Positions 1,411-21,920 of a stretch of DNA of 21,920 nucleotides are shown piece after piece. Under the pieces are notes generated by a model. The model had not been told where the DNA came from. It saw only the letters and a list, made by a program, of their open reading frames with translations, and searched no databases. Positions within the stretch are counted from its first letter, which is position 1, and each line of letters opens with the position of its first letter. A program made the position numbers and the translations under genes. Source of the stretch: a virus; the IMG/VR virus record IMGVR_UViG_3300020470_003359, positions 1-21,920 of that record; one strand, written 5' to 3'.

Positions 1411-3285
1411 CTAAGAGTTCTGTGACGATGAAACAGTAGACGTATTTCGAGTCGGATCATTTCCATCCCTGTCTACCACGGCATGCATAGTTATCTTAAT
1501 ATCCTCATCGAGTATAGCGAGGATCTGGTCACGAACTGGGGTTATATCATTAATCGCAGGACGAACAAATACATCCAGTTTATCATTATCAAAAGAAAGA
1601 GGTCTAAAACCTTGTATCTCTATCTTACCTGTGTCGTAGTGAACCTTACCTACATTGGATTTGACGATAGTCTTTTCCAAAGTATTTGGGTCGACAAAGA
1701 CGACTCTCAGTCTACCTTGTACTGTATTTCCTAGATGCAAATCTTCGAACTGACAGTTAGCCACTTCTGAACCTGCATCGTTTTCGTGTGAGAATTTTGT
1801 TGAGGTCAACGTGCCGACGTAAGATTGATTAGGTAAGTATAGAGTATTATTCGTTTTCAAGTCTAAGTTGTTTTCAGAGACGATCGACGGTATGAATGTT
1901 TTCCTGAGTCGAACAGAAGTCAGGTTGTTTCTTATGGCAACGTCCTGAGCATCAATATCTGCTATGAGACTCGAGTATCGGAAGACACGATCGAAAGTCA
2001 ACAACTCGCCTTTACTGAAGTTCTTAATATAGTTCTGTACATTCTGTGCTATGATTTCTTGTGGTGTTGGTGTAGCATCAGGTTTGTAGTAAATGTCTAT
2101 CGTAAGTTCAATAAAGGTGTAATCTGGATCAACGATGTTTATTCTTATAGCAACGAGGTTTCTCTCAGTCAGTTGTAGTCGAATATTTTGTTTCTCGACA
2201 AATGAGTAGAATGCTCTGTTCTGAGGTTTGACTGCTACAAAGACATCGCCATATCTTGGTGGGTCATTATCTTCACCACCCCATCCTGTTAATGAATCCA
2301 AGTTTGGCACAAGGGTTCGGGTATATGTTAAGTAATCTTCTAATGTAACACACCGACCCTGCGCAGCAAAGTATTTCGGTGCATTGTATTTTATTTCTGC
2401 TACTGATTCCCTGGGTTTACCACCTGAGGATGCTTGAACTGTGGTAATGATTGCTTCAGACTGTCCTGCTACCAAACCAGTTGGGGAGAAATCAAATGCC
2501 TTATTAGATGCCTCTCCGTTGGTAGAAATGTAATCAAGTAGAACGATATTGCCATCTTCAATCTTACGACCGAGTGTGCCATTTCCAAATGTGACTTCGT
2601 ACCTGGCTCCGTCAACTTCGTCGAGGTAGTAAACATTTGACGTTCCGAAGATCTCGACGACGTTGTTAGCCAAAGACCAAGTCGTAGCAGTATCATCCAA
2701 CTGGGATGACTGAATCACTACATCAAGGGTAGATACGTCTGCTGTAATATTCTTTACCAAGAACTGTTGGTCAGGATTTGTCTCATCATTAATGTAGGAG
2801 TGACGTATCGGTGTACCCTCTCGAAGTTCTACACCATTAGCAAAGTAGTCACCAGTTCTGTTTGGTTTGACTGTAAGTGTATCTGTAGTTACGTAGAAAA
2901 ATTCCTCACCATTTACCTCTGTCCTAAACTCAGTATATTCTTCTAGGATCAATGGATCAGCAGTTGGTGTGTCAGGTATGATTTGAATGTTGACAACTGC
3001 CATCGGTGCCGTAGCAGATCTAGGAGTGTAACCGATCGCCTTTGCTTTTGAGACTACGTTATTTCTTAACTGTGCAGACTGCAGGAAGGATTCGTTAGAA
3101 AGTTGGTTGACATAGTATGCATTGTAGAAAGTATTATATGCCAACATGTCTGCCATAAGACTGAGATTTGATCCCTCAAAATCAAAGTCGGCAAACTGAT
3201 TCTTGGATTTGATAAACTGCATTAGATTCGATTTTATATTATCGAAATCTAAATCGCTAACTTGTAGAGCAGTATTGACTGCCAT
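1411..3285 (-). CDS. gp6: Baseplate wedge protein, gp6-like
   Basis: Encodes 624 residues, close to T4 gp6 (about 660). Gp6 dimers form the continuous ring that joins the six wedges of the baseplate. The N-terminus is typical of the T4-like family: FDNIKSNLMQFIKSKNQF, then FEGSNLSLMADMLAYNTFYN, then QSAQLRNNVVSKAKAIGYTP (residues about 14-90). The middle, around residues 330-400, carries the J-protein-like segment with QGRCVTLEDYLTYTRT. The ATG shares one base with the TAA of gp25 (TAATG) and is preceded by AGAGAGGT, so it is probably coupled to gp25. The order gp25-gp6 is conserved in contractile tails. Confidence 0.93.
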   Translation of the reverse strand: MAVNTALQVSDLDFDNIKSNLMQFIKSKNQFADFDFEGSNLSLMADMLAYNTFYNAYYVNQLSNESFLQSAQLRNNVVSKAKAIGYTPRSATAPMAVVNIQIIPDTPTADPLILEEYTEFRTEVNGEEFFYVTTDTLTVKPNRTGDYFANGVELREGTPIRHSYINDETNPDQQFLVKNITADVSTLDVVIQSSQLDDTATTWSLANNVVEIFGTSNVYYLDEVDGARYEVTFGNGTLGRKIEDGNIVLLDYISTNGEASNKAFDFSPTGLVAGQSEAIITTVQASSGGKPRESVAEIKYNAPKYFAAQGRCVTLEDYLTYTRTLVPNLDSLTGWGGEDNDPPRYGDVFVAVKPQNRAFYSFVEKQNIRLQLTERNLVAIRINIVDPDYTFIELTIDIYYKPDATPTPQEIIAQNVQNYIKNFSKGELLTFDRVFRYSSLIADIDAQDVAIRNNLTSVRLRKTFIPSIVSENNLDLKTNNTLYLPNQSYVGTLTSTKFSHENDAGSEVANCQFEDLHLGNTVQGRLRVVFVDPNTLEKTIVKSNVGKVHYDTGKIEIQGFRPLSFDNDKLDVFVRPAINDITPVRDQILAILDEDIKITMHAVVDRDGNDPTRNTSTVSSSQNS

Positions 3286-3683
3286 TATCTACCTCTCTGC
3301 AAGGTCTGAGTAACTTCTATCTCTTGCGTAGTGTCTTTAATAACGCATGTCACAAAAATATCATATAGTTGTCGTTCTTCGTTAGGTGTGACTGTAACAG
3401 TCGAAACAGTTACCCTTGGTTCTTGGGTGGCTATTGCGGCACGTATACGGTTCTCCATTCTGCTAGCAGTCAGGTTTGTCATTGGCTCGAAGAGCATCTC
3501 CTTGAGTCCTGCGCCAAGATCTGGTCTAAACAATCTTTCGTATGGACCTGTTGCCAGGATGTTCAGAACCGATGCCTGAACTGCCTTCTCATTTGTAATC
3601 TCGTCAAGGTCCTTGGTTACAGGATTCCTTTTCATTGATAAGTTAATATCTGAAAAGGTCTTGGGAAGAGGTTCGGTAGCCAT
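3285..3683 (-). CDS. gp25: Baseplate wedge protein, gp25-like
   Basis: Encodes 132 residues, the usual size of T4 gp25 and its relatives in all contractile machines (P2 gpW, T6SS TssE). Gp25 sits in the wedge core and helps nucleate the sheath. Family features visible are KRNPVTKDLDEITNEKAV near the N-terminus, ILATGPYERLFRPDLGAG (about 43-60) with the conserved ER pair, and the ending EPRVTVSTVTVTPNEER followed by a beta strand. The ATG has no Shine-Dalgarno sequence: its upstream region is the stop codon of the 1553-residue gene embedded in a CTAAATA element that ends 4 bases before the ATG. This suggests its own late promoter and possibly a leaderless message. Confidence 0.94.
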   Translation of the reverse strand: MATEPLPKTFSDINLSMKRNPVTKDLDEITNEKAVQASVLNILATGPYERLFRPDLGAGLKEMLFEPMTNLTASRMENRIRAAIATQEPRVTVSTVTVTPNEERQLYDIFVTCVIKDTTQEIEVTQTLQRGR

Positions 3684-3687
3684 ATTG

Positions 3688-3699
3688 TATTTAGGTTAC
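3688..3699 (-). promoter_or_regulatory. Late-promoter-like element before gp25
   Basis: On the minus strand this reads GTAACCTAAATA. The same element, apart from the third base, occurs twice more in the divergent spacer near 16930. It resembles the T4 late promoter box TATAAATA (6 of 8 in CCTAAATA). It contains the TAA of the upstream gene and ends 4 bases before the gp25 ATG, so a transcript starting 6-7 bases downstream would begin at or inside the start codon. Confidence 0.6.
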
Positions 3700-6600
3700 G
3701 TCCTGAACGATCGGTATGTTCTTGACGATTCTAACGATTTCTCCTGGCGAGTTTGGCACCTGAGGATCAACAAGATCGAGGAAAGCAAAGTTCCTGCTTT
3801 CGCCAGCACCATTTTTAGAGAATGCCATATAGTAAAATGCCTCATCGGGAACTGCGACATTTGAGACTGGTCGACTGAGTTCTGCGAGGTCATCATCGGA
3901 TATTGGAGTAACTCCATGATTGATTATTCCTGAGTTCGCTACGTGAGTTGTAAAGGTACTTGAGTCCAATGGAACTGAAAGTGCCGTATCCGTAAAGAGT
4001 GTTATGATCTGCGAGTTAGCAGCATCCACCACAGCATAATAATCATTGTTATTTAGTTCAGTTGTTCCTGAGACACCAGTAAAAGTTATCAGTTCACCTG
4101 TCCTTACACCATGCTCCTCTTCTTCCATCGTTAGTTCGGTACTCGTGCCCAGTGTGATTGCTCCTATAAAACCTTGAGCATTAGACTTCCTGCCAGTAGT
4201 ATCTACTCTTATAAAATCTTGTGTACCATAGTAGATAGCATAGTTATCTATGAATGATTCGTCTACGGCAGGCGTAAGTGTAAATGTTCCCGTAATCTCA
4301 TTGGGATCATTTAGCTCATCAATAAACTCTATTCCCTCAGGAGCAAATCTTGGGAAATAACCATTGTCGTTGATAGCAATATTAAATGAAGTTCTTGATA
4401 CTACCTTTTGACCTGGGACAGTTTGCTTATCACGAGCAGTAAAAATCATGAAATGAGTAACAGTTTTATCAAGAGTCGTAAGAGGAATCGGTGCTTCTAA
4501 TAACCCCTGTTGATTAATGGCTCTGTAGTTTACATCTGCTCCAACCTGTGAACCAACGATTGCTACAGCATTGATTGCTGGGTTGAACTGCCCAAAGAAA
4601 ACTCTGTAGACATCATCGATACCAAACTCAGATACGTGTCCTGTACCTCTTTCAATCAGAAGTGTTCCACTGACTGTATATCTGTCAGGATTCGTATCAG
4701 TAAACGAAGCACTTACCGCACCTTCTCTTGGTGCTGATATTTTAGAAAGTGGATATACAACTGCTGGCGATAAACCATTTTGATTCTCAGCATACACGAC
4801 AAGTGTTTCGATAGGTGCAACATACGTGCCTGGATCTAGTTGCCTATTGGTAAGGGAGATTGTTTGTATACCTCCACCAGCAGGCAGAACTACACTCATG
4901 AAAGGATCAGTAGTAAGATCTTTACCGTTTGCGTCACCAAAGAAGATTCTGAATCCCAATACTGATGAAGTATTTTCAGGACCTGATAAATCTTGATCTT
5001 CAATAGTAAATGTAAGGTTTGTAAGGTATTTGTCTACAACTGAAACTGAAGAAGCAACATCGTCAACCACAACCTCTGGAGAAGCAGGAAGTGTAGTTGA
5101 AATCGGAATCACGTGTTCTACTTCTGAATCTCGAGCAGTATATACTGTAACATCACCAGCACGACTTCTAATTTCAGCAACAGAAACAAGCAAGACATGA
5201 GTTGTTCCTTTAGGGATAGTATTGGCACCTACTTCAACTTCTTTGATCAACGGGACTTCATTTGCAACTGATTGCTCAAAGTCTATATCATTTGACAACC
5301 ACGTATGGAAGTTATCTAATTTCTCGTATGTGATATTCTCAAACTCATCCTTGACTGCCTTTGCCCAGTAAAGTGAATACGCAATAACTCTTTGTGATCT
5401 CTCATCATTGGCAGATAATCTTTCTACCTCAAACCTCCAATAAAATTTTAGTTTGTCTGATCGACGACGCATCTCATTTGAGCTAAATCCTGCGAGGTCT
5501 GCATTGAGCAGGTTCGCATTTACTACACCAGTTTGGTTTGGGTCTCTAAGTGCTTGTTGCCCATCAAGTAAATCATTCTCTGCCCCTGTCAAAGCAACAT
5601 AACCACCACTTCCTTCTTTACCTGTTCCCCCTTTGTCGAACCTATCAGTACCACCATCAGACATATCTAATGACGCACCCAACACACCACTCATAGCATT
5701 CGGTAAAACCATAAGTGATTCGTCCAGGTCACTGTTTCTGAGCATGTCCTCTTTAAAGACAGACTCCATATGACCACCTCTTCTGAGTGCCTCGCCTAAC
5801 TGATCTTTAATCTCTTCCTGGAAACCAGCAAGCGATTTCTCAAGTAAAGCACCATATTTTTTTCTTGCTTCTTCAAAGGTTTTGAATGCTTGGTTTGTGT
5901 TCAAGAAGTTCTGAAATGCACCAAAGTCTGACTCAGCACCCAAAAGCAAAATAGCAAATGAATATTTTAAATGCTCAGGAGGAGCACCTGGTGCAGTCTT
6001 AAGTTCCTCAAATTTTTTCTTTAATCCTGCCTTGCCGTGAGCAGAAAAAGTTACACCATAGATACCTGAGTCTGCTAGTGCCGCAAGAGACTGCAACCAT
6101 TTAAGGAAGTTTACAATACCAGTTTCCAGTTCCTTTAAAAATTTTATTACGTCATCAAGCAACTGCACAAGTTCTGATACTGCATTAGCACCACCCTTGG
6201 CGAGACCACGGAGAAACTGCGTAAATCCCAGTATAGTGTTTCGGACTGCGAAAGCAAAATCTGGGAAGAACTCAGCGACCGTGATCTTAGGAGCGAAGTC
6301 AGGTCCTATTGAAGGTGGAAACTCATATCCACTAAAATCACCCAACTCAGTATTGAATGTTCCAAGCACACAAGATTTTGAACCAGACACAACTTGCTTG
6401 TCTATGTCTATTGTACCATCACCTTCTTCTATTGCCTGATAAACTAACTCACCTGGCTGGAATGGTTGTCCCTCAATCATTTCATATTTTCCACCACCCT
6501 GTGAGTTGGTGTAAGGCATTACTAGCAACCTTTGAGCACTGTAAGAGGATTCTTCGTCTTGACTAAATGTTATGTTGGGTGGAACAGGACCACCTTGTAA

Positions 6601-8352
6601 AATGTTATATGACCCAGTCGTATTCTGATTTATTACTCTTTCATTTTTCGTTTGAGTTGCCGTAAGTGTAGAATAAGGATTATAGACATTTCCTCTGTCA
6701 TCAACTGCTACAATATTTTCTTTTTCTGTTCTCTCATTCTTAAGCACGATAACTGTGTTTTTACTTTGCTCACCTATGAGAATCGTACCCTCTTCAATCT
6801 TATGAAAACTTTCCTTCACCTGCATCTTAGGAAAGAAAGGATTCATTGCTGCCGCACCTGACAGTGGTTTTTGTGCAGATACCATACATATGTTTCTCAT
6901 GTGTATAGATCTTGCCTTTGCGTGCTCATTGAATGCCATTGTAAGGCGATTAGTCAAATCTGCAAAATACTTGTCAAAACCATTGAAGACTCGACCGAGC
7001 AGTTCAAGAACTGAGAGTGGAATGCCGTCGATCGTTGCGGCACCCACATAGAAAATCGCACCAGTATATTTTGTGAATCCACTATCAAGATCCTGATCTA
7101 GAGAAGACTCATAGTCAACTGACTGAAAGAAACCGAAATCATTTCCTCCAAATGGATCACCCTTAACTCCACCAGCATTAAATCCTCTGAGTCTTGGGCG
7201 ACCATACTTATCTCTCTTTGGTTTACCTATTTCTCCGAAAACTTCTTCAGTATCATTTTCTAAGGTAGCAAGTGATTGATTTACTGCGTTAAGTTTTGCC
7301 TGCACAGCAGACTTGTTTTGAGCAGATGCATTCTTAAGTATCGCCTCAAACTGTAACTTCTGTGAGTGAGCAAAGAAATAGTTCTGTGGATTTTTGATTC
7401 TCTGTTCTGCTCTATCTGCTTTTTCGGCACTGGTATGAAGTTCAAAAAGTGGTGCCCCAGGTCTGTTGAAATCACCCTTGTCATCAAGTGCTGATGCCAT
7501 ACCATCAAGAACATCCTTAGGTGACAACTGTGTAAGACCTAGTGCCTCTGCTCTTTTCCCAACATACGCCAAACCTGAGTCCATAAGGTAACGTGCTGAT
7601 CTAGCAGTTGAACCCAATACACCATCATTGTTTCCATCATCGTCATCAGTAATATTTGCTAGATCTGCCTTACCCTCACGTTCTGCAATAATCCTCTTTG
7701 CAGATGATCCATATTTATTCGTAAATCCTTGTACTAAGAAAACATCATCTTTGATTGAATTATAGATAAATCTAAGTTTGATATCCTTTGTTTCTCTTGG
7801 ACTAAACTTCAGTGAAGTCTTTTGCTGTATCCGTGCTACATATTCTGTTGCGGCAATCTCATGTGGTCGAAGGAACTGCTCTGATAAATATTTTGGTCTT
7901 CGTGCACGTTCTGCATCTCTGACCTTCTGCGAATCTGGAAGAGCACTGTTGATGCGCATCGCCATCGCCATCATCTCATAAGAGGCAGACTTTTCCTCTA
8001 GGTTAAGGATATCTCTCAATAGTTGACCAGGATAAACGAACTCAGCATCTTTCTTAAACTTGGCGACTTTTTCCAAGTCAGTATTGCCAGAGTGTATGAC
8101 CATATAATACAAACCAGCATTGAAAAGGGAGTTGACATAATCCTCGATCGCCTGACAAAGAACCTGTATGACTATAAAAAATGGGTTGGCTAAACCTGTC
8201 AGAAGAAGTTGCAGGAAGGCGACGTTCGCTTGAGCTAACTGTGCAAGTTGCTTTACGACCTTGATGCAACCATCGATGTCCTTGAGGAACCCTTTGATTG
8301 CCTTTGTGTTATTGGTCGCAAAAGTTAGACTCTGCCATTCTCCGTCAGCCAC
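3691..8352 (-). CDS. Large virion structural protein (1553 aa) with C-terminal fibronectin-like modules
   Basis: I cannot name this protein; its position between hub and wedge genes implies a virion role. The start is GTG at 8352, overlapping the previous stop by 8 bases. Residues 35-87 are strongly hydrophobic (LLLTGLANPFFIVIQVLCQ) and could be a buried helix bundle. A short helical heptad-like stretch lies near 345-375. A second helical region, about 690-780, contains ELVQLLDDVIKFLKELETG. From about 960 to the end there are four beta-rich units of roughly 110-120 residues with matching strands: YSLYWAKA (near 985), FRIFFGDA (1131), YRVFFGQF (1247) and YAIYYGTQ (1369), each of the last three followed by a strand such as VVYAENQNGLS or YYMAFSKNGAGES. 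These look like fibronectin type III-type sandwiches. The last unit carries an insertion with HGVRTGELITFTGVSG, a motif I know from phage tail proteins. Confidence 0.75.
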   Translation of the reverse strand: MADGEWQSLTFATNNTKAIKGFLKDIDGCIKVVKQLAQLAQANVAFLQLLLTGLANPFFIVIQVLCQAIEDYVNSLFNAGLYYMVIHSGNTDLEKVAKFKKDAEFVYPGQLLRDILNLEEKSASYEMMAMAMRINSALPDSQKVRDAERARRPKYLSEQFLRPHEIAATEYVARIQQKTSLKFSPRETKDIKLRFIYNSIKDDVFLVQGFTNKYGSSAKRIIAEREGKADLANITDDDDGNNDGVLGSTARSARYLMDSGLAYVGKRAEALGLTQLSPKDVLDGMASALDDKGDFNRPGAPLFELHTSAEKADRAEQRIKNPQNYFFAHSQKLQFEAILKNASAQNKSAVQAKLNAVNQSLATLENDTEEVFGEIGKPKRDKYGRPRLRGFNAGGVKGDPFGGNDFGFFQSVDYESSLDQDLDSGFTKYTGAIFYVGAATIDGIPLSVLELLGRVFNGFDKYFADLTNRLTMAFNEHAKARSIHMRNICMVSAQKPLSGAAAMNPFFPKMQVKESFHKIEEGTILIGEQSKNTVIVLKNERTEKENIVAVDDRGNVYNPYSTLTATQTKNERVINQNTTGSYNILQGGPVPPNITFSQDEESSYSAQRLLVMPYTNSQGGGKYEMIEGQPFQPGELVYQAIEEGDGTIDIDKQVVSGSKSCVLGTFNTELGDFSGYEFPPSIGPDFAPKITVAEFFPDFAFAVRNTILGFTQFLRGLAKGGANAVSELVQLLDDVIKFLKELETGIVNFLKWLQSLAALADSGIYGVTFSAHGKAGLKKKFEELKTAPGAPPEHLKYSFAILLLGAESDFGAFQNFLNTNQAFKTFEEARKKYGALLEKSLAGFQEEIKDQLGEALRRGGHMESVFKEDMLRNSDLDESLMVLPNAMSGVLGASLDMSDGGTDRFDKGGTGKEGSGGYVALTGAENDLLDGQQALRDPNQTGVVNANLLNADLAGFSSNEMRRRSDKLKFYWRFEVERLSANDERSQRVIAYSLYWAKAVKDEFENITYEKLDNFHTWLSNDIDFEQSVANEVPLIKEVEVGANTIPKGTTHVLLVSVAEIRSRAGDVTVYTARDSEVEHVIPISTTLPASPEVVVDDVASSVSVVDKYLTNLTFTIEDQDLSGPENTSSVLGFRIFFGDANGKDLTTDPFMSVVLPAGGGIQTISLTNRQLDPGTYVAPIETLVVYAENQNGLSPAVVYPLSKISAPREGAVSASFTDTNPDRYTVSGTLLIERGTGHVSEFGIDDVYRVFFGQFNPAINAVAIVGSQVGADVNYRAINQQGLLEAPIPLTTLDKTVTHFMIFTARDKQTVPGQKVVSRTSFNIAINDNGYFPRFAPEGIEFIDELNDPNEITGTFTLTPAVDESFIDNYAIYYGTQDFIRVDTTGRKSNAQGFIGAITLGTSTELTMEEEEHGVRTGELITFTGVSGTTELNNNDYYAVVDAANSQIITLFTDTALSVPLDSSTFTTHVANSGIINHGVTPISDDDLAELSRPVSNVAVPDEAFYYMAFSKNGAGESRNFAFLDLVDPQVPNSPGEIVRIVKNIPIVQDVT

Positions 8353-8602
8353 TTGTCACTTTCTCTCTTAGTTTTTCGAGTTCGTCTATACTTGCTCTTA
8401 ACTCATCAACAGTTCCCTGTAATGCTTCAGCACTCTCAGCATGTTGCCTCCAGTGTGTAGGGTGAGACCATTTATCCTCTTGAACTGGATTCAGTTCCTT
8501 ATTTAACCTAGGATCTAATGGTCGCTCAAGAGGAGTAGAGTTTGTATTTTTTGCGATTTCGCCTAACATCGTCGTAGATGAGGTCGAGATTTTTAATTGC
8601 AT
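8345..8602 (-). CDS. Small protein with C-terminal coiled coil (85 aa), unknown function
   Basis: No family recognised. The ATG at 8602 has an AAAAAAGG sequence about 6 bases upstream, which favours it over the internal ATG at 8569 that has none. This start makes a 77-base overlap with the end of the 995-residue gene. The last 30 residues (SAEALQGTVDELRASIDELE, then KLREKV) have a heptad pattern typical of a short coiled coil; the middle is proline and charge rich (DPRLNKELNPVQEDKWSHPT). The stop overlaps the GTG of the 1553-residue gene by 8 bases, so it is tightly embedded in the operon and is probably real. It could be a small adaptor or a chaperone for one of its giant neighbours (inference). 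Confidence 0.65.
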   Translation of the reverse strand: MQLKISTSSTTMLGEIAKNTNSTPLERPLDPRLNKELNPVQEDKWSHPTHWRQHAESAEALQGTVDELRASIDELEKLREKVTSG

Positions 8603-11513
8603 TACTTGCCTTTTTTAAGTCACCTATGGCATCGCCAGTTAAATACTCTGCCATGTTGTAAAGTTCCATTGAATAACCCTGAGCAGATTCTCCGTGTCCT
8701 ATGGGAAAACTGTCTGTATTAGAAACAGGAAAACCTATTCTATTGTGTACAGAAAGTTTCCACTCATCAGTTGCCTGCTTGCATAGATTTAGCGCATCAA
8801 AAAGTGCGTTAGAATCTTGAGTGGTAGAAAAGGTAAAACCTGTTGCCTTCGCTGTTGAGTTGGTAAAACCATCCATTGCATTATTCCATTCAGTTCTCCA
8901 GTCTCTGACTGTGTTGATACTGTCGAGAACGAATCTGTAAAGTGCCCTGTCTTGATCTATGGTTGCATCACCTGCGTAGAAACCATGGTTGTAAATAGTC
9001 AATCCTGGTTTGTTGTTGGATGAGCCAGCACCAGTTGCATCACCAAAATACAAGTCCCAATGTCCATCAGCATGTATATCGTAGACGGTATTTCCTGATA
9101 CAACTTCAGCAAACTGAGCATGCGCAGTCCATCTGCTTCTCAGCACATCAGCAAATGCAGTCATGTCGTTGCTGTTGAAGAGTTTGCCAAAAACGTTCCA
9201 CTCATTTCTCCATTCTTCAGCATTCCAAACCAGTGTGTGCAAATAGTTTCCTGTTGGTGATCCATTATTTGTTTCTGGATTTACTTGCCACTCGCCTGTT
9301 ACCTTCCAAATCCTAGGACCCTCATTATTTTCCATTTTGATATAATAAGTTCCTGGCTCATGATTAAAAGTCGTCGGAAAAGTTGTTTGGTTTCCATTGA
9401 CAATAGTTTGCGAAACGGTATTGTTGTATTGATTGTATGCACCATTACCCAGAGGGAAGTAGGGCAACTTGGTCGGAGTTCCACCTCCTGCGACAGCATC
9501 TCTAGTCCATGCTGGAACTGCCCAACTATCAACTGCTGACCCTGCAGTATCCCAAGTCATGAAACTGCCAACATCTGCTGTTCCTGCCCCATCCTGAGGA
9601 CTGTTTAGAAATCTCATGTTTCCTGAGTAAGTACCATTATCATAGTACAGATTCATCAGGCGATTCATACCATCAGCAAGTGCATCATTTGCTGTCAGTG
9701 TTTTGATTGTCTGTACATCAAGTGCTCTTGAACCATTCGTAGGATCTGTTGCATATCCTGGTAACTCAGTATGGAAAACTTCGGTGTTCGGATCAGTAGT
9801 GCTGTACGTATCTAAAAATGGACACGGCAAATATCTCCACCTTGCCTCAGCATAAACAGCAAACTCAACTGCCCCTGCTCCATTGTTTATAGACTCATCC
9901 CAATAAGCAGAAGTTCCTGCATATGGTGCACTATCATCAGGGAAATCCTCTACACCAGCAGGTATAAAAGCATTGTACTCAATGTAAGGATACTGATCAT
10001 TCGGTCTACCTGGAGCACCTGCTCTCGTTGAGTTAAAGAACTGACGTTTGTTTGACCCTGACTTTGCTGTATTAGATTTGAAATCAGCAGGTCGTGTAGT
10101 TGACACAATCGCTAAGTCTGTATTTGCTGCCCACCCCAAGTATGGCACGAAAGTATCGTTGTCCATTTTAGTAATGTTTTGAGCAGGCAATCCATCCATG
10201 TGTCTGTTGTTTGCCGCAAACCATTGGAAGTTCATCTGTAAACCCCTGCCTGTTACAATGGCAAGAAGTCCTGTAGTATGAGCAGGATCAGCATCAGTAT
10301 GATCATTCCACCTTCTCATTGGCAGTGTCTTCCCGAAAACTGGTGGAACGATTTTGTTTATATCACCTGTTTGATAGTTTCTGCCATCCCTTGTGTTTGC
10401 TGTCCCAGCAAGTTGTGAGTGATGTAAAGTTATCTGAGCAGGAAACTCAATCCCTTCTGCATCTGAGTAACTGGCGAGGTTCATCGTTCCATACTGTTGA
10501 CTCCAGGTATCCTGTTCGTATCCTTCGATAGTAGCAGCCAACTCATCTGTTATCGTTTCGCCGACTCCAGTAGCAGTCCATCTAAATGCTGTGTTAACAG
10601 TGCCTACAAAACCAAATGCACCTGATGACAAACCTTGTACCTTGTCAGAGATATCAAATCCTGTATCACCTCTCTCAATCTTTTGCTTGCCGATAATATC
10701 AACTGACATCGTTGAAGTATTAACAGCAGATATAGAGTCAAGCACCATAGTTTTGTCACCACTCAAAATAGTTTCTGTTGTGGTAAAAACTGCATCATTG
10801 GAAACTGAGTTTAGTTTGATATTATGAACCAGTTCTGGTGTATAAGTATCAATAACCAGTACACCATTATTTGACTGGCGAAAATCAAAACGTGTGTCAG
10901 TCGCTGATTCTGGTGGCAAGTAATCACCATCTTCTGGTTTGAATGCTATTTCGCCATTGATGAGATTCTGTGGTATGTAAGGTGCTGGACTGACAAATAC
11001 ACCTACGTCATCATCTATATTGAAAAAGTTATGCGTATCATAGTCCTGCGCAAGATAGTAGTCACCAATGTAGTTCGAAAATGTATTGCCATTTATTGTT
11101 ACTTTAGACCCTGCTTTGTTGCTCATTACAACTTCGCTAGTCCCATCAAGTGTTACGATTAGAACTGAAAGTCTAGAGGTAGTGCTTGCCGCAACATTCG
11201 CAGTGGTGATGAAATCATTAAATGTACCCAACTCATAGTTCATTAACCAGTCCTGTGAATAACCCATGAGATTGCATCTCATCTGTCCTAACTTCTTGCA
11301 GGTAGAATGTAGGTTGCCTGCTCCGTTGGCACCAGGATGCATGAATGCTCTGCCTGATGTGTGTAGGTAGTTATCCGTATCTGGATCGGTCATAACTTCA
11401 CGTATAGACTCGACATCCTTAAGAAGTCGAGTGCGAGTATCAACTGCCATAGAGGGTGCATCGAGCAGTGCTTGGTCTGCGTCATTTGCACGTTCGTCTT
11501 TAATCGCTCCCAT
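8526..11513 (-). CDS. Unrecognised large virion-type protein (995 aa)
   Basis: I do not recognise this protein. It is rich in Asn, Thr, Asp, Gly and Trp, with few Lys and Cys outside the ends, a composition typical of extracellular beta-rich virion proteins. The first 100 residues are helical and charged (MAVDTRTRLLKDVESIREVM). Residues about 100-700 look beta-rich with many aromatic positions. Two later stretches share a tryptophan spacing: EEWRNEWNVFGKLF (about 776-789) and VRDWRTEWNNAMDGF (about 880-894). The C-terminus is helical and basic (DLIYDDVRRNRKKYKLYSS). No signal peptide, transmembrane segment or catalytic motif is visible. The ATG shares one base with the stop of the 158-residue gene. 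Position between spike and wedge genes suggests a baseplate periphery, fibre or tail-tip protein (inference). Confidence 0.7.
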   Translation of the reverse strand: MGAIKDERANDADQALLDAPSMAVDTRTRLLKDVESIREVMTDPDTDNYLHTSGRAFMHPGANGAGNLHSTCKKLGQMRCNLMGYSQDWLMNYELGTFNDFITTANVAASTTSRLSVLIVTLDGTSEVVMSNKAGSKVTINGNTFSNYIGDYYLAQDYDTHNFFNIDDDVGVFVSPAPYIPQNLINGEIAFKPEDGDYLPPESATDTRFDFRQSNNGVLVIDTYTPELVHNIKLNSVSNDAVFTTTETILSGDKTMVLDSISAVNTSTMSVDIIGKQKIERGDTGFDISDKVQGLSSGAFGFVGTVNTAFRWTATGVGETITDELAATIEGYEQDTWSQQYGTMNLASYSDAEGIEFPAQITLHHSQLAGTANTRDGRNYQTGDINKIVPPVFGKTLPMRRWNDHTDADPAHTTGLLAIVTGRGLQMNFQWFAANNRHMDGLPAQNITKMDNDTFVPYLGWAANTDLAIVSTTRPADFKSNTAKSGSNKRQFFNSTRAGAPGRPNDQYPYIEYNAFIPAGVEDFPDDSAPYAGTSAYWDESINNGAGAVEFAVYAEARWRYLPCPFLDTYSTTDPNTEVFHTELPGYATDPTNGSRALDVQTIKTLTANDALADGMNRLMNLYYDNGTYSGNMRFLNSPQDGAGTADVGSFMTWDTAGSAVDSWAVPAWTRDAVAGGGTPTKLPYFPLGNGAYNQYNNTVSQTIVNGNQTTFPTTFNHEPGTYYIKMENNEGPRIWKVTGEWQVNPETNNGSPTGNYLHTLVWNAEEWRNEWNVFGKLFNSNDMTAFADVLRSRWTAHAQFAEVVSGNTVYDIHADGHWDLYFGDATGAGSSNNKPGLTIYNHGFYAGDATIDQDRALYRFVLDSINTVRDWRTEWNNAMDGFTNSTAKATGFTFSTTQDSNALFDALNLCKQATDEWKLSVHNRIGFPVSNTDSFPIGHGESAQGYSMELYNMAEYLTGDAIGDLKKASNAIKNLDLIYDDVRRNRKKYKLYSS

Positions 11514-18048: not shown

Positions 18049-18705
18049 ATGGCAAACTATGACATAGATGGATTTATAGGGCAGGTAGGAGCAAAAGGTT
18101 TTGCTAGAGGCAACTTGTTTACAGTATATGTGGACATTGCCCAGTTAGACCAATCATGGGTTTCAGGCACATCGATTACAACAGCAGACCTTGCTATGCA
18201 GGCACAGAGTGTTGAGTTGCCAACAAAAGCACTGCTCACAAAAGAGATATTTACTCAGAACATACCAAATCCAATGGGTTATAATCTGCAGTATTCAGAC
18301 TTAACGATCAACTTTCTACTCGATAACAATACAGACAGAATGACCATATGGGGATTTTTTAATACTTGGATGAATCGTATAGTAAATCCCTACAATACAT
18401 ACGTAGGTTATAAGAGAGATTATTCATGCCCGATTTATGTTTCCACTATTGGAACAGGCAAAAACATACCAAAAAGTCCCGATCATTCGTTCGGTGCTAA
18501 TAAAGATACGCACCACAAATCGGTAGCAGTAAAATTCGTAGACTGCTTTCCCAAGACATTGGGAACAGCATCATTAGACTATTCAAATGCTGAGGTTATA
18601 AAGTTTCCTGTTACGTTTGCTATAAGACATTTTGAGGATGTCAAAATAGACACAGACTTAAAACAACTGGGTTCAAGAACAGGAGTTATTGGCTCAGCAA
18701 CTTAA
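18049..18705 (+). CDS. Tail-tube-fold protein, gp54/gp19-like
   Basis: Encodes 218 residues. The layout matches the tail tube fold shared by T4 gp19 and gp54: ARGNLFTVYVDIAQLD (about 19-34), then YSDLTINFLLDNNTDRMTIW followed by GFFNTWMNRIVNPYNTYVGY (about 84-123), then AVKFVDCFPKTLGTASLDYS and IKFPVTFAIRHFED near the end. The FFNTW/NP pair and the late CFP...LDYSNAEV...FPVTFA strand set resemble gp54, the tube initiator that sits on gp48, so I favour gp54 or a tube paralogue over the main tube protein gp19 (about 163 residues). AAAGG lies 5 bases before the ATG. It comes one base after the preceding stop. Confidence 0.72.
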   Translation: MANYDIDGFIGQVGAKGFARGNLFTVYVDIAQLDQSWVSGTSITTADLAMQAQSVELPTKALLTKEIFTQNIPNPMGYNLQYSDLTINFLLDNNTDRMTIWGFFNTWMNRIVNPYNTYVGYKRDYSCPIYVSTIGTGKNIPKSPDHSFGANKDTHHKSVAVKFVDCFPKTLGTASLDYSNAEVIKFPVTFAIRHFEDVKIDTDLKQLGSRTGVIGSAT

Positions 18706-18720
18706 TTATGAAAGGATTGA

Positions 18721-19437
18721 ATGGCGTTACCACAGTTATCAGTAAAGCAGTTTGAGGTACGGCAACCCTCGACAGGCGAGAAACTGACTCTGAGACCTTT
18801 TCTGGTATCAGAGGAGAAGATTTTGTTACAAGCAGGCGAGCAACCTGATACTATGATGGATGCAATGAAGCAAGTTCTCAAGAACTGCATCATTGGACAG
18901 GACATAGATCTAGAACAACTCCCCTCTTTTGATATAGAGTTTTTGTTTTTGCAACTGAGGTCTGAATCAATAGGATCACAGGTGCCACTAATGATCCAGC
19001 ACACAGATAAGTGTGAAAGAACTGAGGTTACAGTAAATCTCAGGGAAATCAAAGTCCATATGCCAAAGGATCTTGAGAATGAGTTCATGCTTGATGACAG
19101 GGTAGGCATTAAAATGAAATACCCTACGTTAGCAGTCATGGGTGAGTTCGCCAACTTCAATGAAGAAACGGATAATGCGGCAGAAATGTCGTTCGAGATG
19201 ATTAAGAAATGCATCGAAACAATATTCACCAAAGATGGTGAGACACACGATGCATCACAGACAAGCGATGAGGAACTGACAGCATTTGTTGACTCAATGA
19301 ATACAGATCAGTTTCTAAAGTTACAGAAATTTTTTGATGAGATGCCAGTAGTAAAGCATACCATCAAAGTGCCTAAGTGTGTAACTTGTGGTGCACCATT
19401 TGAGCAAGAGGTACAGGGAATACAGTCTTTTTTCTGA
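18721..19437 (+). CDS. gp26: Baseplate hub assembly chaperone, gp26-like
   Basis: Encodes 238 residues (T4 gp26 is 208). The N-terminus is the conserved T4-like block LPQLSVKQFEVRQPSTGEKL, TLRPFLVSEEKILLQAGEQP, then KQVLKNCIIGQDIDLEQLPS and FDIEFLFLQLRSESIGSQVP. C98 and the C220-x-x-C223-G pair may form a small metal site. In T4, gp26 helps build the central hub together with gp51, gp28 and the tape measure. AAAGGA lies 5 bases before the ATG. The last codons TCT TTT TTC TGA contain a slippery heptamer, so this product may be the unshifted form of a pair. A 176-codon open frame lies antisense to it and is treated as a shadow. Confidence 0.88.
   Translation: MALPQLSVKQFEVRQPSTGEKLTLRPFLVSEEKILLQAGEQPDTMMDAMKQVLKNCIIGQDIDLEQLPSFDIEFLFLQLRSESIGSQVPLMIQHTDKCERTEVTVNLREIKVHMPKDLENEFMLDDRVGIKMKYPTLAVMGEFANFNEETDNAAEMSFEMIKKCIETIFTKDGETHDASQTSDEELTAFVDSMNTDQFLKLQKFFDEMPVVKHTIKVPKCVTCGAPFEQEVQGIQSFF
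19415..19434 (+). promoter_or_regulatory. Predicted programmed -1 frameshift site
   Basis: The heptamer T TTT TTC occupies 19428-19434 with the correct X XXY YYZ phasing relative to the gp26-like frame (codons 236-238), and the stop TGA follows directly. A Shine-Dalgarno-like AGGGA at 19415-19419 lies 8 bases upstream, similar to the stimulator in dnaX. A weak stem is possible downstream (19437-19441 with 19467-19471, and 19448-19451 with 19461-19464). Confidence 0.7.
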
Positions 19438-19637
19438 TATGCCTCTCTCATGATAACTTGATGAATCATATGCAGACAACATTTGCTCTTCATCGATACC
19501 ACAAATACACTATTGAAGATCTCTATAGTATGATGCCTTGGGAGAGGCAAGTCGTTGTTCACCAGGTAATGGATGCAATGGAAAAAGAAAAGCAGGCACA
19601 GTCAGGAACCACCAATATGTTTGACGAGGAAATGTAA
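19434..19637 (+). CDS. gp51-like C-terminal extension of gp26, reached by -1 frameshift
   Basis: After slipping at T TTT TTC, reading resumes at CTG 19434 and gives 67 further residues ending in TAA 19635-19637, for a fusion of 305 residues. The added part contains CLSHDNLMNHMQTTFALHRY, then HKYTIEDLYSMMPWERQVVV, a block I associate with T4-like hub chaperones (T4 has gene 51 directly after gene 26). No good independent start exists: the ATG at 19461 has no Shine-Dalgarno sequence and the ATG at 19439 is in another frame with a stop after four codons. The stop shares a base with the tape measure ATG. The arrangement mirrors the G/GT chaperone pair located before the tape measure in lambda-type phages. 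Confidence 0.72.
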   Translation: MICLSHDNLMNHMQTTFALHRYHKYTIEDLYSMMPWERQVVVHQVMDAMEKEKQAQSGTTNMFDEEM

Positions 19638-21920
19638 TGGCAGATGCTCAAGTACCAATACTTAATGACATACTGAAATCTAGCAAGCAAGTGCATAAAT
19701 CACTGCTTAATGGATTCAGTCTGCTCAATAAAAACCTGCTGAACCAGACCAAGGCAATGACCATGGGGCAGAAGGGTATAATGACTGCCGTCATCAGCAT
19801 GAGAAAACATGCTGAGGGCAATGCCAAAACCATGGTTGAAGGATTCGGAAACTTACTGGATGCTGAGAGAAAGGCATTGGAGTTTGAGAAGCAGGAAGCA
19901 ATCAAAGAAGGTCTTAAGAAAAACGAAGAGACAAGAGAAGGTGGTGGAAAAGGATTGCTTAATGATTTGCCAAAGGGAAAAGATCTAATCGATCCTAAGA
20001 AGTGGGCAGGGTTTGCTAAGAGTTTCTTGATGGGATTGTTTAGCGCACTGAGTTCTCTGTTTACTGGTCTGATAACTACATTCCTCGCACCCCTGTTACT
20101 AGGAGCATTCCAAGGATACTATGAGTCTTTAGTAAAGGCGATGAAGGCACCATTCAGATTCCTTAAACTTGCCCTCGGTACACCACTAGCATTTGCCAGA
20201 GATATATCTGCTACCCTAGTAAAAACCTTTCTGAAAATTATTGATCTTGTTACCTTTGGAAAAATGAAAGAAGTTACAGGGACTATTGAACTGCTCACGA
20301 ATAAAGTATTGAATATGTTCAATCCGATCGGCAAAATAGTTGATAATCTCTCCGTGAATCTAGATGCTAAACTGCCTGATGTCGAAGCAAAGGGAGCAAA
20401 AGCATTAAGTTTTGTTGATAAGGTAAAAGGATTTTTTAATCTATCAATCTTCAGCACAGACCTTTCCAAAGGTATGCCTACCTATGCTGAATCCCCTCTA
20501 GGGAAGTTTATAAGCAAGACCAAAAATTGGTTCTTCGTCGGAACATGGGAAGAGGGTGCTAAGGCCATTGATGTAGATACACCTAACGCAGATACTCTGA
20601 AAAAGTCTCCTTCATTTTCTCTTATTGAAAAGGTTAAGGGATTCTTCAAACTCCCTGACTTTAGTTCAATGCTTCCGAAACTATCACTACCAAAACTCCC
20701 AGACACAGGTCTAGGAAAGTTTATTGATGGAGTCAAAGCACTGTTTAAGTTTGAGGGACTGGGCGTAGACGTATCAAATATAGGCGAAAACCTGAAAAAA
20801 GCAATAGGCGAAAGTTCTATTGTCAAAATGTTTAAGGGTGTTCAAAAGTTCTTTGGTCTTGGTGGATCGAAAGAACCAGGTCCAATCCAGAAAGCAATAG
20901 AAGCAATCAAGAAGGTATTTGATTTTGAACTGCCTTCAGGTCTACAGAAAGTGTTAAAGGGCATAGGTAAGATATTCGGTAAGGTCTTCTTTATCGTAGA
21001 TATCTTCATGGGACTCTACGAAGCATTTAAAGCATTTACAACTACAGAAGGTTCGTTAGCAGATAAGATAGTTGCCGCACTCAAGGCATTTATCGATGAG
21101 GTAGTATTCGGTCTGCCTAACTTCTTGATAGAAATGGTTGGTAAAGGTATATCTGCCTTGCTCGAGTTCTTAGGATTTGGTGATGCGGCAAAGAAGGTAG
21201 AAGATGCTACCAAAGACTTCAGCATCATGAAGATTTTAGAGGACAGTATATCTAAGGTCTGGAAATGGATGAAGGAGTTTTTCGGCAACCTGTTTAATTT
21301 CGAAAGTCTAAGTATGGAATCATTGATTCCGTCATTTGATTTTGATATAGGGAATCCTCTTAAGATAGTAGGTGAGAAACTTGCTGGTATCATGAAAGGA
21401 TTCGCTGATTACACAAGAGGAACATTTGGTGTAGGTTGGTTTACTGATCTTATGGATAGTGCGGCAGAGAAGATCCTAGGTTGGGGAGCAGATGAAGGTG
21501 AATCCAAGATGGGTGTGCAAAAGAAAAGATCAGGTGGTATGGTACAACAGGTGACGGGTGAGCAAATACCTGCTATTCTACATGCCAATGAGGTGGTGCT
21601 AGCAGAACAGTCAGCAAAACTTTTCTTGCAGGCAGCACAGATGTTTGCCAAACCTGAATACATCAACAGCATCAAGGACCTAGTCGCAACTAATGATCAA
21701 ATCAAAACTCAAACGACTGACGCAATCATGCAAGCAGGTGCCATGAGTGGTGGTGACGGGGGAGCATCAGCAATGGTTGCTCAACTTGCGGCACAAACTG
21801 AAGCACTGGGTGCTACAATGGCACAGATCCCAGGAGCAGTACAACAAGGTGCTAGCAGTGGTGCTAGGACTGGTACTTCCTACCAGGGATTCTCAAAACT
21901 ATCTAATCCTCACGAGAAAA
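19637..21920 (+). CDS. Tail tape measure protein (gp29-like), C-terminus off window
   Basis: Open for 761 codons to the right edge, longer than T4 gp29 (590) and still incomplete. Tape measures set tail length and are ejected with the genome. The N-terminus is helical with VHKSLLNGFSLLNKNLLN; residues 122-160 are a strong hydrophobic stretch (FLMGLFSALSSLFTGLITTF). From about 255 to 470 there are irregular amphipathic units such as VDKVKGFFNLSIF, IEKVKGFFKLPDF, GKFIDGVKALFKF, MFKGVQKFFGLGG and IEAIKKVFDFELP. Near 632-655 there is SGGMVQQVTGEQIPAILHAN followed by EVVL, the GE.xP motif common near tape measure C-termini. Its position directly after the gp26/51-like chaperones agrees. The ATG overlaps the extension stop by one base; AGGAAATGTA lies upstream. 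Confidence 0.86.
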   Translation, partial: MADAQVPILNDILKSSKQVHKSLLNGFSLLNKNLLNQTKAMTMGQKGIMTAVISMRKHAEGNAKTMVEGFGNLLDAERKALEFEKQEAIKEGLKKNEETREGGGKGLLNDLPKGKDLIDPKKWAGFAKSFLMGLFSALSSLFTGLITTFLAPLLLGAFQGYYESLVKAMKAPFRFLKLALGTPLAFARDISATLVKTFLKIIDLVTFGKMKEVTGTIELLTNKVLNMFNPIGKIVDNLSVNLDAKLPDVEAKGAKALSFVDKVKGFFNLSIFSTDLSKGMPTYAESPLGKFISKTKNWFFVGTWEEGAKAIDVDTPNADTLKKSPSFSLIEKVKGFFKLPDFSSMLPKLSLPKLPDTGLGKFIDGVKALFKFEGLGVDVSNIGENLKKAIGESSIVKMFKGVQKFFGLGGSKEPGPIQKAIEAIKKVFDFELPSGLQKVLKGIGKIFGKVFFIVDIFMGLYEAFKAFTTTEGSLADKIVAALKAFIDEVVFGLPNFLIEMVGKGISALLEFLGFGDAAKKVEDATKDFSIMKILEDSISKVWKWMKEFFGNLFNFESLSMESLIPSFDFDIGNPLKIVGEKLAGIMKGFADYTRGTFGVGWFTDLMDSAAEKILGWGADEGESKMGVQKKRSGGMVQQVTGEQIPAILHANEVVLAEQSAKLFLQAAQMFAKPEYINSIKDLVATNDQIKTQTTDAIMQAGAMSGGDGGASAMVAQLAAQTEALGATMAQIPGAVQQGASSGARTGTSYQGFSKLSNPHEK

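Follow-up and report, generated by a model that had tools for sequence, protein, structure and literature searches.

The tail assembly chaperones of an uncultivated, marine T4-like phage are very probably made in a short and a long version through a -1 programmed ribosomal frameshift at the heptamer T TTT TTC, located at the end of its gp26 gene. The DNA analysed, hereafter the window, comprises positions 1 to 21,920 of the IMG/VR record IMGVR_UViG_3300020470_003359, and its relevant features are collected in Table 1.

In the mechanism that we infer, most ribosomes would stop at the TGA at 19435 and release a gp26 protein of 238 amino acids, the short form (TAC-N). A minority would be made to pause over T TTT TTC by a Shine-Dalgarno-like element ahead of it and an RNA helix beyond it. 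After moving back by one base, these paused ribosomes would continue through a 67-codon gp51-like domain, producing a fusion of 305 amino acids (TAC-NC). By analogy with G and GT of lambda (PMC5009743), coating of the tape measure would fall to the short form and recruitment of tube subunits to the long one, and neither form is expected in the virion.

Table 1. Features of the gp26 junction and its neighbouring genes (positions in the window)
Feature	Position	Strand	Basis
Tail tube (gp19/gp54-type) gene, directly upstream of gp26	18049-18705	+	phrog_45 tail tube, E 4.8e-29
gp26-family ORF, 238 aa; putative short tail assembly chaperone (TAC-N)	18721-19437	+	PF12322, phrog_150, AlphaFold model
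Shine-Dalgarno-like AGGGA, 8 nt before the heptamer	19415-19419	+	codon bias, synonymous randomisation
Slippery heptamer T TTT TTC, in gp26 phase	19428-19434	+	TTT 19429-19431, TTC 19432-19434
0-frame stop TGA, ending the short form and adjoining the heptamer	19435-19437	+	direct reading
-1 extension, 67 codons plus TAA 19635-19637; gp51-like (TAC-C), C-terminal domain of the predicted long form	19434-19637	+	phrog_634, phrog_150, conserved -1 ORF
5' arm of the long-range helix, TGCCTCTCTCA, beginning 5 nt past the heptamer	19440-19450	+	duplex energy, covariation
3' arm of the helix, TGGGAGAGGCA, encoding W-E-R of the PWER motif	19539-19549	+	duplex energy, covariation
Presumed tape-measure gene, at least 761 aa, running off the window	19637-21919	+	position and length

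The slippery site and the -1 frame at the end of gp26

The last codons of gp26 read CAG TCT TTT TTC TGA. The sequence-only reading had pointed to an in-phase heptamer as the last element before the gp26 stop, to a 67-codon frame entered by a -1 slip and to an AGGGA lying 8 bases upstream. Direct reading of the window bears out each of these points, and the figures given for the predicted fusion (238 + 67 = 305 residues, with the junction QSFFLICLS) are all correct. Reading in the -1 frame from 19434 begins with LICLSHDNLMNHMQTTFALHRYHKYTIEDLYSMMPWER... In-phase heptamers of the form X XXY YYZ, where Y is A or T, occur just 14 times in the 7186 codons of the window, and TTTTTTC is found only at this site.

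Conservation of the heptamer and of the -1 frame among gp26 homologues, which had been proposed as a check, was followed through 226 junctions from named phages and IMG/VR loci, reduced to 185 after dereplication. In 181 of the 185 loci, an in-phase TTTTTTN lies 0-8 codons before the gp26 stop, combined with a -1 frame that stays open for 58 or more codons from the slip. The last base of the heptamer is C in 145 of these loci, T in 20, A in 15 and G in one, the preceding codon is always NNT, and the stop stands 0-1 codons past the heptamer in 163 of the 181. The remaining four (Vibrio phages K364 and K393, Serratia phage 2050H1 and Pseudomonas phage Cygsa01) carry N NTT TTY, a weaker slippery form. 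The version in Serratia phage 2050H1, G GTT TTC, is the heptamer of T7 gene 10. A chance arrangement or a pseudogene is ruled out by the conservation in 181 of the 185 loci.

The ends of other genes in homologous loci were used as a control, taking ORFs of at least 100 amino acids and asking whether a heptamer within the final 10 codons was accompanied by a -1 extension of at least 45 codons. Both features were present in 1 of 416 control ends, compared with 91 of 94 gp26 ends in a first set of 94 loci. Furthermore, Phe-Phe is written TTT TTC at 78 of 91 gp26 ends but in only 6 of 96 internal pairs.

All 13 named phages, belonging to Kyanoviridae, Straboviridae, Ackermannviridae and unclassified groups, show a slippery run near the gp26 stop, and in each of them the -1 extension contains a block recognisable as PWER-like. 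The extension is unannotated in Aeh1, Cronobacter S13, Aeromonas Aswh_1, Aeromonas 65.2, S-WAM1 and Serratia 2050H1. In Aeromonas phage Aeh1, a gp51-like domain is found in the -1 frame directly after gp26 (positions 3244-3411 of locus L016). Aeh1 has been reported as the only phage from which gp51 is missing (PMC3037559); contrary to this reported absence, its gp51 domain is hidden in the -1 frame.

Protein identity, gene order and relation to known chaperones

Profile searches identified gp26 as a full-length match to the T4 gp26 family, with hits to PF12322 (E 4.5e-54) and to phrog_150, 'baseplate hub' (positions 5-232 of 282, E 4.2e-59). The extension had been suspected to be gp51-like, and the profile search suggested for it supports this, since the -1 ORF matches phrog_634, the gp51 family 'baseplate hub assembly catalyst' (E 9.3e-17). 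It also matches phrog_150 weakly, at positions 236-276. The phrog_150 profile covers gp26 with its N-terminal portion and the extension with its C-terminal portion, so this family profile contains fused members. T4 gp51 spans positions 13-280 of the 282 in phrog_150 and matches PF12322 (E 4e-52), and thus it comprises a gp26-like domain and the extension in one frame, while T4 gp26 corresponds to just the short form and lacks the extension.

The AlphaFold model of gp26, predicted from an alignment of the window and IMG/VR rows only, has a pLDDT of 92.4. Two of the 982 PDB chains aligned to it scored above Z 5, the third best reaching Z 3.5. The best match is the uncharacterised Bacillus protein 3fgx (Z 8.5). 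Residues 1-85 align with the HK97 tail assembly chaperone 2ob9 at Z 7.5 (rmsd 3.5 over 83 residues), a moderate score below the safe range of the tool, so that the likeness of the N-terminal portion of the model to the HK97 chaperone is suggestive. Foldseek with the same model recovered gp26-family proteins of many viruses; a plain Foldseek search of the PDB returned nothing significant, and searching PDB sequences with the profiles of gp26 and of the extension yielded no meaningful hits. The extension is modelled as four helices, with a pLDDT of only 72.

The gene order is tail tube, gp26 with its -1 ORF and presumed tape measure, the placement found for G/GT-type pairs. The last A of the TAA of the extension is also the first base of the tape-measure ATG, a one-base overlap. 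The presumed tape-measure ORF had no match in profile searches and is assigned by its position and length, and with this assignment the ORF order agrees with the earlier claim that the pair precedes the tape measure. No Rfam families or tRNAs were found in the window. The heptamer and -1 frame, the gp51 match, the fused organization of T4 gp51 and the HK97 alignment together lead to the proposal that gp26 and the gp26-gp51 fusion would be the short and long chaperones. The view that gp26 and gp51 are counterparts of G and GT, also put forward in the sequence-only reading, is supported by the gene order and, at a moderate score, by the HK97 alignment.

The likeness to gpG and gpGT of lambda is one of organization: a short protein is encoded before the tape measure, a -1 slip site lies near its end, and the extension has no start of its own. 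However, no sequence homology was detected, and the heptamer is T TTT TTC rather than that of lambda. A longer tail-building helper protein produced by such a slip is known from many other phages. The lambda proteins and related -1 frameshifted tail chaperones were reportedly treated together by Xu, Hendrix and Duda in 2004.

The relation to T4 is closer, as gp26 and both halves of the predicted fusion are homologous to T4 gp26 and gp51. In T4, however, the genes are divergent and gp51 is a complete fused copy that is not frameshifted; the T4 gp26 gene ends in TTC TTT and no -1 extension follows. T4 was listed in 2016 as an exception to the conserved G-T frameshift (PMC5009743). The comparison made here suggests that T4, which has long been listed as exceptional, shares this system and has a separate gene for each of the two forms.

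Frameshifting is said to be conserved in several T4-like groups, other than that of T4 itself, in the work of Vladimirov, Gautam and Davidson (Virology 2022, 566:9-15). According to passages in two papers, these authors identified TAC genes in T4-like phages in 2022; TAC-N of some T4-like phages is described there with poly-T -1 slippery signals, and other T4-like phages are described with separate genes for the short and the fused long TAC (PMC10885494, PMC12846349). The chaperones of T4-like phages having been published in 2022, the frameshift is a known claim and the present phage, which has the same gp26/gp51-type short and long chaperones but is uncultivated and marine, is a further member. 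Vandenendeviridae and Andersonviridae, exemplified by phage Adele, share a poly-T slip site at the end of TAC-N and a -1 extension that is often unannotated, although their motif is GTTTTT and they represent another phage lineage (PMC12846349). Over 185 loci, the comparative evidence supports production of the tape-measure chaperones by a -1 slip in a very large group of T4-like phages, both marine and other.

Signals on either side of the slippery site

In most relatives the upstream element reads GAGGG, its end lying 9 nt away from the heptamer. The Glu codon at this element is GAG in 98 of 130 loci, compared with 29% in gene bodies (P 4e-28), and the predicted anti-Shine-Dalgarno pairing exceeds that obtained by synonymous randomisation (P 1e-10). 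Glu-Gly is written either GAG GGN or GAA GGG, so that about 9 nt separate the purine run from the heptamer. Judged from these codon statistics, the Shine-Dalgarno-like element is preserved through codon choice. The stimulatory Shine-Dalgarno sequence of E. coli dnaX lies at the same position.

On the downstream side, the two arms listed in Table 1 form an 11-bp duplex of -20.4 kcal/mol. The own 3' arm is the best partner among 93 for the 5' arm of the window, the other 92 being weaker, and no other convincing partner was found in the downstream regions at +40 to +100. Across the loci, the helix starts 5-6 nt after the heptamer. The sequence past the heptamer folds more strongly (mean z -1.56) than the body of gp26 does (mean z -0.17). 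Under randomisation of synonymous codons, the helix reaches a mean z of -2.10, compared with about -0.25 for arms placed elsewhere. When own and swapped arms were compared, the long-range helix in the clade of the window gave z -8.05, and the cyanophage-type loci, in which a local hairpin begins at that 5' position instead, gave z -10.9; control regions remained between z -2.3 and +0.8. In four loci near the clade of the window (L113, L114, L111 and L193), short perfect hairpins are found instead, such as GACTTTCTCACGAAAGTC in L114, in which the same 5' arm pairs with an adjacent partner. From the sequence, the layout is that of a dnaX-type stimulator, with a Shine-Dalgarno-like element about 10 nt on the 5' side and a helix 5-9 nt on the 3' side.

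It is unlikely, though conceivable, that the helix is no stimulator but a by-product of codon or amino-acid constraint, the codons of LSH and PWER being complementary; the frameshift would stand in either case. Both arms do encode conserved residues, and the protein sequence fixes most of the invariant pairs. Nevertheless, two pairs of the helix join the wobble bases of different codons (Leu5-Glu38 and residue 4-Arg39), and both of them covary: Watson-Crick combinations number 53 where 34.5 are expected and 51 where 35.2 are expected (p 2e-4 for each), whereas four control wobble pairs show no covariation (p 0.31-0.99). In a shuffle test on 65 related rows, 29 double-change cells were counted versus 15.3, above all shuffles, a result that is inflated by relatedness. 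For this reason an independent-pairs sign test was run, giving 7.3 versus 1.0 (median p 0.07) for one pair and 2.8 versus 0.1 for the second, with the controls about even. The covariation on independent branches is thus clear in its direction and, taken alone, marginal, which leaves some room for the by-product explanation. It is further opposed by the mean z of -2.24 under synonymous randomisation in the clade of the window, and by the different local helix that cyanophages hold at the same spacing.

The downstream helix therefore seems, from sequence comparison, to promote the slip. It is probable that its start has been kept 5-6 nt past the slip site while its partner moved in evolution, and that the helix drives the frameshift. 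The partner strand would, with similar probability, lie about 90 nt away in the PWER codons in the clade of the window and 20-30 nt away in cyanophages. A partner-switching helix within coding sequence would mean that the same stretch both encodes a chaperone domain and holds a stimulator that can be switched. The helix looks undescribed as a slip promoter: neither the Shine-Dalgarno-like element nor the partner-switching helix was found in the literature searched, although Vladimirov et al. (2022) may mention them. The long-range helix would offer a compact natural test of distant base pairing as a promoter of frameshifting in bacteria.

Start of the extension and other sites in the window

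An ordinary gene overlap has also to be considered, in which the -1 ORF would be a separate gp51 gene with its own ATG, perhaps translated by re-initiation after the gp26 stop. It is annotated in this way in GenBank for many cyanophages, and gp51 of S-PM2 starts 3 nt past the gp26 stop. Codon 5 of the -1 ORF is ATG in 73 of 181 loci, of the cyanophage type, and because this ATG stands 5 codons past the slip, a separately started gp51 is conceivable in those loci. The codon-5 ATG (e.g., position 3220 in L010) follows the gp26 stop after two or three bases, a place at which re-initiation could occur. However, the other 108 loci have no such codon, and in 85 of them the first ATG is 13 to 34 codons in. 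Conserved -1 residues precede most ATGs in these loci without M5 (L5 in 104, H7 in 98 and L10 in 96 of the 108). In the window, the earlier remark that the 67-codon ORF has no convincing start of its own holds: the first possible starts (TTG 19458, ATG 19461 and ATG 19470) show no Shine-Dalgarno pairing at all, and no convincing ribosome binding site was found for the extension in this computation on the window alone. By contrast, the tape-measure ATG at 19637 has a GAGGA ribosome binding site (-5.9 kcal/mol). The conserved purine element, ending 9 nt before the heptamer, is too distant from any ATG to serve as such a site. Unlike the separate full-length gp51 of T4, the ORF found here is the C-terminal domain alone, and T4 has that domain as an in-frame fusion. 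Finally, a separate gene would have no need of T TTT TTC. Taken together, a separately started gp51 is very improbable as the general explanation.

Least credible of all is a slip of the polymerase while it transcribes the T run, which would yield mRNAs that differ in their number of U: the site is indeed a run of 6-7 T, but six T are short for transcriptional slippage, the codon phase, the Shine-Dalgarno-like element and the helix at the typical spacing of a -1 frameshift are all conserved, and N NTT TTY in the Vibrio, Serratia and Pseudomonas phages cuts the run to 4-5 T.

Elsewhere in the window, two genes of the baseplate cluster on the minus strand (3691-8352 and 8526-11513, encoding 1553 and 995 amino acids) have no PHROGs match. 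An ORF of 85 amino acids on the same strand (8345-8602), likewise without a PHROGs match, shares 77 bases with the end of gene 8526-11513, relative to which it lies in the +1 frame, and also overlaps the start of gene 3691-8352. The gene at 8526-11513 contains an in-phase A AAA AAG at codon 965, 31 codons before its end; it is probably there by chance, because the -1 frame closes after two codons.
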